A stretch of 64,000 nt of DNA from Ramlibacter algicola. GTDB taxonomy: Bacteria; Pseudomonadota; Gammaproteobacteria; Burkholderiales; Burkholderiaceae_C. The translations under genes and the position numbers were made by a program. Positions 7,802 through 35,936 of the stretch are shown piece by piece. The DNA is taken from positions 2,232,001-2,296,000 of the forward strand of contig NZ_JAEDAO010000001.1 in NCBI RefSeq assembly GCF_016641735.1, given 5' to 3'. The notes beneath the pieces were generated by a model. That model was not told where the DNA came from. It worked only from the letters and a program-made list of their open reading frames with translations, and did no database searches. Every line of letters begins with the position of its first letter. The first letter of the stretch is position 1.

Positions 7802-7885
7802 GGATGTTCTCCGCGGTGGGACGCGGGGACCATACCGCAGGGCCTGCGTGGGGCGGCTCGGGGCTTCCCCGAGCGGGATTCCCCC

Positions 7886-7960
7886 AGGAGCCTGGGCGGC
7901 AGAGAGACGGGTTCGCGTTGGGTCGAGAAGGGGCCAGGCTAGGCTGCCCCCCAGGCTCCT
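7886..7960. repeat. short copy of a dispersed ~60-bp repeat, with 10-bp inverted ends
   Basis: Bases 7886-7944 begin AGGAGCCTGGGCGGCAGAGA, continue through GGGTTCGCGTTGGGTCGAGA and end GGCCAGGCTAGGC. They match, with few differences, the reverse complement of 35242-35302 and, more loosely, 35032-35091. The copy closes with CCAGGCTCCT (7951-7960), the inverse of its own start, so the 75-bp element can form a cruciform. Its right edge overlaps the TAG stop of dctM. It occupies most of the 157-bp gap between dctP and dctM. Confidence 0.85.
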
Positions 7961-9275
7961 AGCCGACGTAGCGCACGAGCCAGAGCGAGATCGGGGGGAA
8001 GAACAGCAGCAGCAGGGTGCGCAGCGTGTCGCTCACCAGGAAGGGCATGACGCCGCGGTAGCTATCGGCGATCGGAACGTCCTTCGCCATGCCATTGACG
8101 ATGTACACGTTCAACCCGACCGGTGGCGCCAGCAGCCCGAACTCCACCACCATCAACACCATGATGCCGAACCAGATCGCGACGGATTCCTTGGGCATGC
8201 CGAAGTCCAGGCCCATCACCATCGGGAAGAAGATCGGGATCGTCAGCAGGATCATGCTGAGCTCGTCCATCACCGCGCCCAGCACGACGTAGAACAGCAG
8301 GATGGCGGCGACCACCGCCAGCGGCGACAGGCCCCAGGACGCCACGGTGGCGGCCAGCTGGTTCGGCACCTGGGTCAGCGCGAGCGCGGCGTTCATCAGG
8401 TCGGCGCCGAGGAAGATCAGGAAGATCATCGCCGAGCTCTCGGCCGTCGCGTAGAAGCACTGCTTGAACTTGTCCCAGGTGATCTCGCGCTTGATCAGCG
8501 CCGCGACGAAAGTCGAAGCCGCACCGACCGCGGCGCCCTCGGTGGGCGTGAACCAGCCGCCGTAGATGCCGCCGAACACCAGCAGGAAGATCAGCACGAT
8601 CGGCAGCACGCCGATGATCGCGTCGCGCGTGAGCGCGGGCGCATCGTCGGTCTCGGGTGCCTGGCCCGGCACGAGCCGGACGTAGATCGCGATGGCCACC
8701 ATGTAGCCGAACATGGCGATGATCCCCGGCACCATGGCGGCCGCGAACAGCTTGGCGATGTTCTGCTCGGTCAGGATCGCGTAGATCACCAGCGGCACGG
8801 ACGGCGGGATCAGGATGCCCAGCGTGCCGGCGGCGGCCAGGGTGCCGGTAGCGAGGCGGCCGCTGTAGCCGTGCCGCTTCATCTCCGGCAGCGCCACCGA
8901 CGTGATGGTGGCGGCCGTCGCCACCGACGACCCGCAGATCGCACCGAACGCCGCGCACGCGAGCACGGACGCCATCGCGAGGCCGCCCTTGAAGCGCCCC
9001 ATCACCGCGGCGGCGAACGAGAACAGCGCCTTGCTGATGCCACCCTGCGTGGCGAAGTGCCCCATCAGGATGAACAGCGGGATCACGCTCAGGTCGTAGC
9101 TGGCGAAGCGCGCGAAGGCCTGCGTGTTGAGGAAGTTCGCGAACGGCGCCCAGCCGGTCTGCAGCAGGTAGCCGGCCGTGCCGGCCGCGAACATCGCGAT
9201 GGAGATCGGCGTGCGGATCGCCATCAGCACCAGCATGGTGGCGAAGATGAGGATGGTGAGGGGCAGCGCGGACAT
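7959..9275 (-). CDS. dctM: TRAP transporter large permease (DctM)
   Basis: A 438-residue inner-membrane protein with about a dozen hydrophobic segments, the main Na+/H+-driven channel of a TRAP carboxylate transporter. Typical stretches are the start PLTILIFATMLVLMAIRTPI, FGAICGSSVATAATITSVALPEM, GILIPPSVPLVIYAI and PTEGAAVGA. Length is normal for the family. A GGAGG site lies before the ATG at 9275. The gene ends in TAG within the terminal sequence of the repeat at 7886-7960. It is preceded at 52 bp by dctQ. Confidence 0.95.
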   Translation of the reverse strand: MSALPLTILIFATMLVLMAIRTPISIAMFAAGTAGYLLQTGWAPFANFLNTQAFARFASYDLSVIPLFILMGHFATQGGISKALFSFAAAVMGRFKGGLAMASVLACAAFGAICGSSVATAATITSVALPEMKRHGYSGRLATGTLAAAGTLGILIPPSVPLVIYAILTEQNIAKLFAAAMVPGIIAMFGYMVAIAIYVRLVPGQAPETDDAPALTRDAIIGVLPIVLIFLLVFGGIYGGWFTPTEGAAVGAASTFVAALIKREITWDKFKQCFYATAESSAMIFLIFLGADLMNAALALTQVPNQLAATVASWGLSPLAVVAAILLFYVVLGAVMDELSMILLTIPIFFPMVMGLDFGMPKESVAIWFGIMVLMVVEFGLLAPPVGLNVYIVNGMAKDVPIADSYRGVMPFLVSDTLRTLLLLFFPPISLWLVRYVG

Positions 9276-34551: not shown

Positions 34552-34923
34552 TCACTTGGGCTGCGCGTCGGGTCCCGCGGGCGTCGGCATCACCGGCCCG
34601 GCGCCCAGCGACTGCGTCTGGTTGGCGCGCAGCGCGGTGGCGCGCTCGGACGTCACCAGCATCACTTGGCCGTCCTGCGCCACCATCTCGGCGGCGGGGG
34701 CGGGTCCACCACCCAGCACCATCCCATTCGCGCCGGCGGTGACGATCGCCAGCGGGCGCACGTCCGCCACCGTGCCGGGGAAGTACAGGTGCTGGTCGCG
34801 CGCGGAGACGCGGTTCCAGTCGACGCCGTGCGGTGCGGACGCGCAGCCGCCGAGCAGCGCGAGGGCGAGGGCGGCGGCGCCACCGGCGATCGCGCCACGG
34901 GCGCGCGTGATGCTGGACTTCAT
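34552..34923 (-). CDS. hypothetical lipoprotein
   Basis: A 123-residue protein with a clear lipobox (ALALALLGGC), so the mature protein would start at that Cys and sit in the envelope. The rest (WNRVSARDQHLYFPGTVADV, MVAQDGQVMLVTSERATALR) has no family I recognise. The C-terminus is Pro/Gly-rich. The ATG at 34923 (MKSSITRARGAI) gives the canonical signal; an earlier in-frame ATG at 34944 adds seven residues. Confidence 0.78.
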   Translation of the reverse strand: MKSSITRARGAIAGGAAALALALLGGCASAPHGVDWNRVSARDQHLYFPGTVADVRPLAIVTAGANGMVLGGGPAPAAEMVAQDGQVMLVTSERATALRANQTQSLGAGPVMPTPAGPDAQPK

Positions 34924-35031
34924 GTCGGGCTCCCTGGACGGCACGCCTGTGCCACGGGGCCACTCTAGGAAGCTCGGCGCTGGCCGTGTGTGTGCGACTG
35001 TTGGAGTGGTGTGCGGCTGTGCCGCACCAGC

Positions 35032-35302
35032 AGGAGCCTGGGCGGCAGAGAGACGGGTCCGCGCCGCGACCAGAAACGCGCCAGGCTAGGCGAGGTCCGA
35101 CGCGCTGTACTCGATGTACAGAAGGAGGCCGTAACGACGCATGGCGCGTTTCTGGTCACGGCCCGAAGGGTTGGGCCGATAAGGGGCCAGATGCGTCGTT
35201 GCGGCCACGGGTCCAGCCGGCCGGGCTGGACCCGCGCCCGCGCCTAGCCTCTGGCCCCTTCTCGACCCAACGCGAACCCGTCTCTCTGCCGCCCAGGCTC
35301 CT
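35032..35302. repeat. 271-bp mosaic palindromic element with 26-bp perfect terminal inverted repeats
   Basis: Left end 35032-35057 and right end 35277-35302 are exact inverse copies (AGGAGCCTGGGCGGCAGAGA..). Nested inside are: 35068-35082 inverse to 35143-35157 (15 bp exact), 35133-35142 inverse to 35191-35200 (10 bp exact, extended to 16 with one mismatch), and hairpins CTGTAC-N5-GTACAG (35105-35121), CGGCCC/GGGCCG (35159-35178) and a 10-bp stem at 35209-35233. No reading frame of transposase kind fits inside. Its arms match the 7886-7960 repeat. It fills most of the 377-bp gap between the lipoprotein and gntR genes and overlaps the gntR stop codon. Confidence 0.9.
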
Positions 35303-35936
35303 AGGCCGCGGCCTGCAGCCCGTTGCGGAAGTGTTCCTGCATGCGCTGGTGCGCCGCGGCGGCGTCGCGCGCCTGCAGCGCCTTCACCAGCCGGCCGTGC
35401 TCGGCCAGGCTCTCGTCGATGCGGCCGGCTTTCAGCAGCGAGTTGTGCCGGTTCAGCTTCATCACCTTGCGCAGGTCGGCGACGAGCTGGTTGCGCCAGC
35501 GGTTGCCGGCCAGGTCCAGCAGCTTCATGTGGAAGCGCTCGTTGAGCGCGAAGAAACGGTCGCGGTCCCGTGTCGCGCCTTCGAGTTCGTCGTGCAGCGC
35601 CTGCAACTCGGCCAGCTGCGCGTCGGTGGCGGTGGACGCGACGACGGCCGCGGCGTCGCTCTCCAACAGTGCGAGCAGGTGGTAGACCTCGGCCAGGTCG
35701 CGCTCGGACACCTCGGTGACGTACGCCCCGCGGCGCACCTTCATCGTCACCAGGCCCTCGGCGGCCAGCACCTTCAGCGCTTCGCGCAGCGGCGTGCGGC
35801 TGATGCCGAACTCCTGCGCGATCTTCACCTCGTCGATCCAGCTGCCCGGCTCCAGTTCGCGTCGGAAGATGCGCTGGCGCAACTGCTCGGCCACCTCTTC
35901 GTAGAGGGCGCGCGGGGCGAGCGAAAGGGCCGACAT
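35301..35936 (-). CDS. GntR-family regulator (FadR/FCD subgroup)
   Basis: A 211-residue repressor. The N-terminal winged helix (ALYEEVAEQLRQRIFRRELE, IAQEFGISRTPLREALKVLA, VTMKVRRGAYVTEV) is followed by an all-helical FCD effector domain (YHLLALLESDAAAV, FFALNERFHMKLLDLAGN, EHGRLVKALQARDA) with the His/Asp metal positions. It is divergent from scpA across 91 bp, so it probably controls the methylmalonyl-CoA/propionyl-CoA genes. The TAG stop lies at the edge of the inverted repeat. Confidence 0.92.
   Translation of the reverse strand: MSALSLAPRALYEEVAEQLRQRIFRRELEPGSWIDEVKIAQEFGISRTPLREALKVLAAEGLVTMKVRRGAYVTEVSERDLAEVYHLLALLESDAAAVVASTATDAQLAELQALHDELEGATRDRDRFFALNERFHMKLLDLAGNRWRNQLVADLRKVMKLNRHNSLLKAGRIDESLAEHGRLVKALQARDAAAAHQRMQEHFRNGLQAAA

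Follow-up and report, generated by a model that had tools for sequence, protein, structure and literature searches.

An inverted-repeat element at the end of a regulator gene

In the window (the whole stretch of 64,000 nucleotides that was analysed), the gene of a GntR/FCD-type regulator (35301-35936, minus strand) ends at a palindromic element of 269-271 bp, likely mobile, whose conserved ends GGAGCC...GGCTCC place it at 35033-35301, with no strand assigned. The perfect 26-bp terminal inverse copies (35032-35057 and 35277-35302) from which a sequence-only reading of this DNA had set out were confirmed, and extend into 44-nt arms of 86% identity; the conserved end lies one base inward of the ends given by that reading. 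The left terminal inverted repeat, GGAGCCTGGGCGGCAGA (35033-35049, plus strand), is an ISKpn6/IS1182-type end with one mismatch, and the right repeat (35285-35301, minus strand) is its exact inverse. On the plus strand the element is flanked at the left by GCAG (35030-35033), which is read as a decayed CTAG, and at the right by CTAG (35301-35304), where 35301-35303 on the minus strand form the TAG stop codon of the GntR/FCD gene.

Further inverse pairs lie nested within these ends, at 35060-35086/35139-35165 (27 nt, 89%), 35170-35194/35247-35271 (25 nt, 88%) and 35201-35218/35224-35241 (18 nt, 89%), and the predicted fold is a Y, in which an outer stem P1 (35032-35058 paired with 35276-35302, both given on the plus strand) bears two arms, each a long hairpin, with a small hairpin at the junction. 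The 271-bp stretch folds at -115.3 kcal/mol as DNA (z -12.0) and at -204.6 kcal/mol as RNA (z -13.6), with none of 200 shuffles as stable in either calculation. Arm 1 (35061-35165) holds a hairpin unit, U, in plus sense, with box 1, AGGCTAGGCG, at 35083-35092 and box 2, GTAACGACGCAT, at 35131-35142, both on the plus strand; arm 2 (35168-35273) holds the unit in minus sense, with box 1 at 35241-35250 and box 2 at 35191-35202 on the minus strand. The arms end in apical hairpins (35105-35121 and 35209-35233, plus strand) and are joined by CCCGAAGGG (35162-35170, plus strand).

Consistent with the sequence-only reading, which had seen no transposase-like frame, the three overlapping ORFs of the element gave no Pfam match at E 0.1. 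Rfam returned one match for the stretch in the window, at 27.5 bits against a gathering cut-off of 80, and for five other loci of the element three matches, also below threshold and every one outside the element. No promoter- or terminator-like site was found in 34900-35420; an intrinsic terminator, with a GC-rich stem followed by a T run, was rejected on that count and for want of a T run, and the lack of a terminator-like site argues against simple intrinsic termination. The attC site of an integron folds with RYYYAAC at its 5' end and GTTRRRY at its 3' end; this candidate was also rejected, since arm 2 has the motifs the other way round (GTTGGGC at 35170, ACCCAAC at 35265).

Arm 1 and the reverse complement of arm 2 have two collinear boxes in common on different stems, and the score of their best local alignment was reached by 1 of 1000 shuffles. 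A model, R1, built from 36 arms, matched arm 2 at 102.2 bits and arm 1 at 73.2 bits in the window, matched arm 2 on its other strand as well (46.2 bits), and gave beyond the two arms one insignificant match (E 0.13). As judged by these alignments, the interior consists of one hairpin of ~104 nt, with conserved internal-loop boxes, in two copies that face inward; the arms meet at a CCCnnnGGG junction and are enclosed by the outer stem, in ~270 bp overall. Since the arms are inverted copies of one unit inside the outer stem, their nesting needs no insertion, and the earlier suggestion of one palindrome inserted into another was abandoned, as was a version in which inner CTAGs are the scars, because the pairing within arm 1 spans such a boundary.

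Two more inverse pairs link the boxes of opposite arms (35083-35095/35238-35250, 13 nt, 92%; 35127-35142/35191-35206, 16 nt, 94%). As a pseudoknot or alternative fold this pairing was rejected, the observed share of paired cells being equalled by 215 of 500 shuffles. Among 51 elements, the likeness between the two arms in one box was 0.74 within elements versus 0.73 between them (permutation p 0.13), and in the other box 0.70 versus 0.68 (p 0.03), a very small difference; the inter-arm complementarity appears better explained by sequence boxes on two inverted copies. In the same 51 paired elements the box variants are seemingly linked, CTAGGCG standing mostly with CAACGACG and CAAGGCG mostly with CAACG then C, which in this listing looks like a covarying contact within the internal loop.

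Copies, target sites and partner insertion sequences

The own genome contains seven near-full copies, including the window element, at 81-100% identity, and several deleted copies besides; an internally deleted second copy in the window (7884-7964, minus strand) retains the left end and some of the right half, and has CTAG at its right end. Matches to the element occur in 21 of the 61 genomes searched (own genome included), from 2 of 25 genera, and the hairpin pattern of arm 2 was found in 30 stretches of named genomes (28 Ramlibacter, 1 Caenimonas and 1 Rubrivivax). Covariation was measured on 26 near-full copies from nine genomes, one copy (L012) being without a right end: 96.6% of cells are paired in the Y structure, double-sided changes affect 44 of its 85 pairs (shuffle mean 21.8), 0 of 500 shuffles reached any of five covariation measures, and the signal vanishes when the partner is slid. 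The changes in the outer stem P1 in Ramlibacter are nearly all Watson-Crick on both sides. For the sequence-only reading, a want of further copies and of compensating changes would have meant a local accident; the genome searches that it proposed turned up further copies with compensating changes.

CTAG adjoins both ends in 5, one end in 10 and neither end in 10 of 25 Ramlibacter copies (L012 left out); the corresponding numbers for 36 further elements are 13, 9 and 14, and the background is 9 in 5970 random 10-mers from the further loci. Alignment of the copies, which the earlier reading had recommended as a way to both ends and target duplications, delivered the conserved ends; a duplication is unreadable in the diverged flanks. 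At one locus (L005), both flanking genes are kept in relatives and the orthologous site is empty, in that 7 of the 20 loci examined in relatives have the flanks separated by 4-48 bp, this being the one locus compared; the intergenic flanks at empty sites have diverged, so that an exact target duplication is unreadable there too, and since CTAG is palindromic, duplications of TA and of CTAG are indistinguishable. CTAG is scarce in the window (16 occurrences versus 183 expected from base composition and 44 from trinucleotide counts), and among the 27 copies inspected, 11 run into the TAG stop of a long neighbouring ORF (in two cases at both ends), the ORFs having been filtered by codon composition; targeting of a scarce CTAG accounts for this overlap.

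A transposase with matching inverted repeats, which the sequence-only reading had advised looking for, was found by an end search in a relative (G019), in a 1.55-kb element that begins with CTAG followed by GAGCCTGCGCGGCAGA and finishes with TCTGCCGCGCAGACTC followed by CTAG; its 432-aa transposase scores 383.8 bits against the IS1182 model (cut-off 270). A 30-base end query gave partial matches in 2018 plasmid records, of which two were inspected: in an annotated one, ISKpn6, called IS1182-like, is enclosed by ends as in the G019 element, and the second has no named IS at the matching end. The own genome yielded no relative of the G019 transposase, and mobility there would therefore be past or driven from outside. 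In a BLAST comparison of the window element with the IS1182 and ISKpn6 loci (E below 0.1), the match is confined to the ends, and R1 has no match in three IS loci. On this comparison the interior is not derived from IS1182, and the element is not simply a shrunken IS.

The genus also contains deletion derivatives of IS1182 (L121, L122). End-only hairpins of ~27-54 bp with CTAG on one or both sides (L126 2290-2316, L132 1993-2022 and L133 from 1025) were found in relatives and in the own genome. At L296 (1343-1366) a mini-hairpin with IS1182-type ends adjoins a Y element, CTAG being common to both, which looks like a reuse of CTAG flanks as targets. At two loci of relative G007 (L129, L130), a long-hairpin element has GAGTCTG-type ends beside CTAG and an unrelated interior.

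A constant core with changeable ends

The outer stems of Y elements start with GGAGCCTG, GGGCCTGTT, GGGTCTGTT, GGAGGCTGTCGGG and other sequences. In relatives G007 and G022, GTGTCCTGTCCC-ended elements share arm 2 with the window element (80-85% over 74-90 nt), and in G007 GGGCCTGTT-ended elements share arm 1 with it (75-78% over 87 nt). In relative G011 (L164), GTGTCCTGTCCC ends and CTAG enclose an IS630-family transposase gene (257.3 bits, cut-off 100), and this IS matches a GTGTCCTGTCCC-ended Y element in the ends and not in the interior; in relative G004, an IS630-like reading frame begins behind a GTGTCCTGTCCC-type end. No autonomous IS with GGGCCTGTT ends was recognised in 8 genomes searched and 15 stretches inspected for ends and ORF lengths. 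Arms are thus common to elements with IS1182-type, IS630-type and other ends, and by this comparison the core would be a module carried by several transposases that target CTAG. The own genome, too, has a Y element with very different ends, TTAGGGCCTGCGCGCC (L354 395-666, G000:C1:4142294-4142565).

R1 matches 20 of 37 genomes of the relatives set (E 0.01). Within the family it matches 127 of 299 genomes, spread over 76 of 141 genera, and within the phylum 32 of 398, spread over 22 of 213 genera (both at E 0.001 per genome). These are counts of genomes, not copies, as matches on both strands are included and the candidates scored per genome were capped; the loci inspected were the best ones. 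Two adjacent inverted arms are present at 22 of the 28 loci inspected in the family and at 12 of the 19 in the phylum, again the best loci only. Together with three loci of the relatives set these make 37 paired elements, none of them used in training R1, and an outer stem closes 36 of the 37 at 264-276 bp despite very different ends, the one left out (L324) being a failure of the stem finder. Of 17 single-arm matches tried, 11 close into an outer stem (score at least 20), and the remaining 6 may be remnants or false. The element at L315 occurs in five plasmid records (Azotobacter 3, Halomonas 1, Pseudomonas 1), with no match in phages or in the E. coli genomes searched; the L294 element matched no plasmid record, and a Variovorax plasmid carries paired arms.

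The arms differ from the outer stem in their non-Watson-Crick pairs. In 118 arms read in unit sense (160 R1 matches, of which the aligner retained 150, with matches overlapping a better one then removed), non-Watson-Crick cells comprise 169 GU, 34 AC and 135 others. As the alignment might favour GU, the outer arm stems were recounted without gaps, in a register set by Watson-Crick pairs only, giving 75 GU versus 32 AC (41 versus 18 in plus-strand arms, 34 versus 14 in minus-strand arms); these cells are not independent events, and some of the GU excess adjoins the internal loop. P1 is without such a bias, with 11 GU versus 13 AC in the 36 elements and 7 versus 9 in Ramlibacter. The two arms thus appear to be under selection on opposite strands, in either case in the sense that a transcript from that side would meet first; single-stranded DNA could also be a source of the bias. 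The idea of a structured RNA folded over nearly its whole length accordingly survives in part: covariation and the wobble bias of the arms favour the fold, and the RNA level itself is putative.

Explanations and known systems

The element is likely a non-autonomous miniature inverted-repeat transposable element (MITE) with ISKpn6-type IS1182 ends that has been moved in trans into CTAG, carrying a conserved double-hairpin core that serves as a module on several transposases and whose arms are probably selected as folded RNA at gene 3' ends. The MITE part, already proposed by the sequence-only reading, is borne out by dispersed copies, ends identical or nearly identical to those of the IS1182 family, CTAG flanks and an empty orthologous site. 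An ISKpn6-type transposase of the IS1182 family would move the element in trans into CTAG sites, the act of transposition being deduced from these features. The non-IS interior, with its two inward-facing units of ~104 nt, CCCnnnGGG junction and surrounding outer stem, would hitchhike on several CTAG-targeting transposases. The order of the units is identical from either strand, so that a transcript from either side first meets a unit in its own sense; the wobble bias suggests selection on each arm in that sense and in the folded state, most likely at the RNA level at the 3' ends of genes, where a putative partner would read the internal-loop boxes. Protection or processing of mRNA 3' ends is a candidate role for the arms, and the core is perhaps an orientation-independent structure acting as RNA at gene ends.

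MITEs are usually regarded as shrunken insertion sequences with meaningless interiors, and the chief rival follows that pattern: an IS1182 that lost its transposase by internal deletion would have a palindromic interior without meaning, kept paired by hairpin-driven repair (template switching) rather than by selection. The deletion derivatives in the genus (L121, L122) and the minimal end-only hairpins (L126, L132, L133) fit this course, and template switching would produce the almost wholly Watson-Crick, double-sided changes of P1. It is nevertheless improbable, because the likeness to the IS is limited to the ends, the boxes and the ~270-bp size are kept across genera and across different ends, and a strand-specific wobble bias in the arms is not expected of symmetric repair. 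An immobile element fixed as a cis-regulatory RNA or as a terminator for the neighbouring gene, which would suit the very stable fold and the 11 of 27 copies at a TAG stop, is very unlikely in view of the unrelated dispersed loci, the empty orthologous site, the lack of a terminator-like site and the explanation of stop-codon overlap by targeting of scarce CTAG. Just as little credit is due to a REP/BIME- or REPIN-type element of giant size, mobilised by a tyrosine transposase through recognition of folded single strands: the two palindromic units in inverted orientation, with their conserved mismatched boxes, resemble such repeats, and the strand-specific folding bias suits recognition of folded single-stranded DNA, but IS1182-type ends and CTAG flanks speak against it, as do a size and tags unlike the GTAG/CGTC families in the available part of their description (PMC3733652). 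The sequence-only reading's alternative of an extended REP/BIME-type repeat likewise finds no support in size, ends or target.

The preferred reading of a MITE with a selected core has a broader form, which is doubtful at present: the Y core, a conserved and structured nucleic acid independent of orientation, may be a distinct class of mobile element that is bound to no single transposase. It would exchange terminal repeats and arms between CTAG-targeting DDE transposases that are unrelated to one another (IS1182, IS630 and others), be maintained across Pseudomonadota, and work as RNA at the ends of genes, where a partner would recognise its two internal-loop boxes. In Y elements it is the interior that stays constant and the transposon ends that vary, in many genera. 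If borne out, this would make selection on a MITE core directly testable, add a large class of repeats at gene ends that is unannotated in the records inspected, and explain palindromes that lie exactly at TAG stop codons. In the open-licence PMC literature, ISfinder being outside the scope, no account of a constant double-hairpin core combined with exchangeable ends was recognised.

Among known systems, ISKpn6 and the IS1182 family have the ends of the element, CTAG followed by GAGCCTGCGCGGCAGA and TCTGCCGCGCAGACTC followed by CTAG, but differ in encoding a transposase and in having no similarity in the interior and no hairpin unit. The IS630-family element (L164, in G011) has GTGTCCTGTCCC ends beside CTAG, like those Y elements of Ramlibacter whose arm 2 is shared with the window element, but differs in its transposase family, in ends unlike those of the window element and in having no hairpin unit. 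As a MITE the element is of a known kind, and the precedent at CTAG, within the available part of its account, is MITEPsy1 of Pseudomonas syringae, which is non-autonomous and duplicates 4 nt on insertion at CTAG or YTAA (PMC3189936). MITEPsy1 differs in its length of 100 nt, its 18-nt ends of another type and its IS5-like partner, and no double-hairpin core is described for it in that portion of the account (PMC3189936). The REP/BIME and REPIN repeats resemble the element as dispersed, extragenic, inverted pairs of palindromic units, but the element has units of ~104 nt and no GTAG or CGTC terminal tag, whereas REP/BIME units are 20-40 bp with GTAG or CGTC tags and with tyrosine transposases linked or none, according to the portion of the source at hand (PMC3733652). 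The intergenic repeats R0, R2, R26 and R200 of Pseudomonas fluorescens come close in another respect, since the ends of R0 and R2 are IS ends and the repeats are biased to sit between gene tails, as stated in the available part of that study (PMC2718517). R0 and R2 are only 89 and 110 bp, compared with ~270 bp for Y elements; R26 (352 bp) and R200 (320 bp), known here by description only, from the same part of the source, may themselves be Y elements (PMC2718517).
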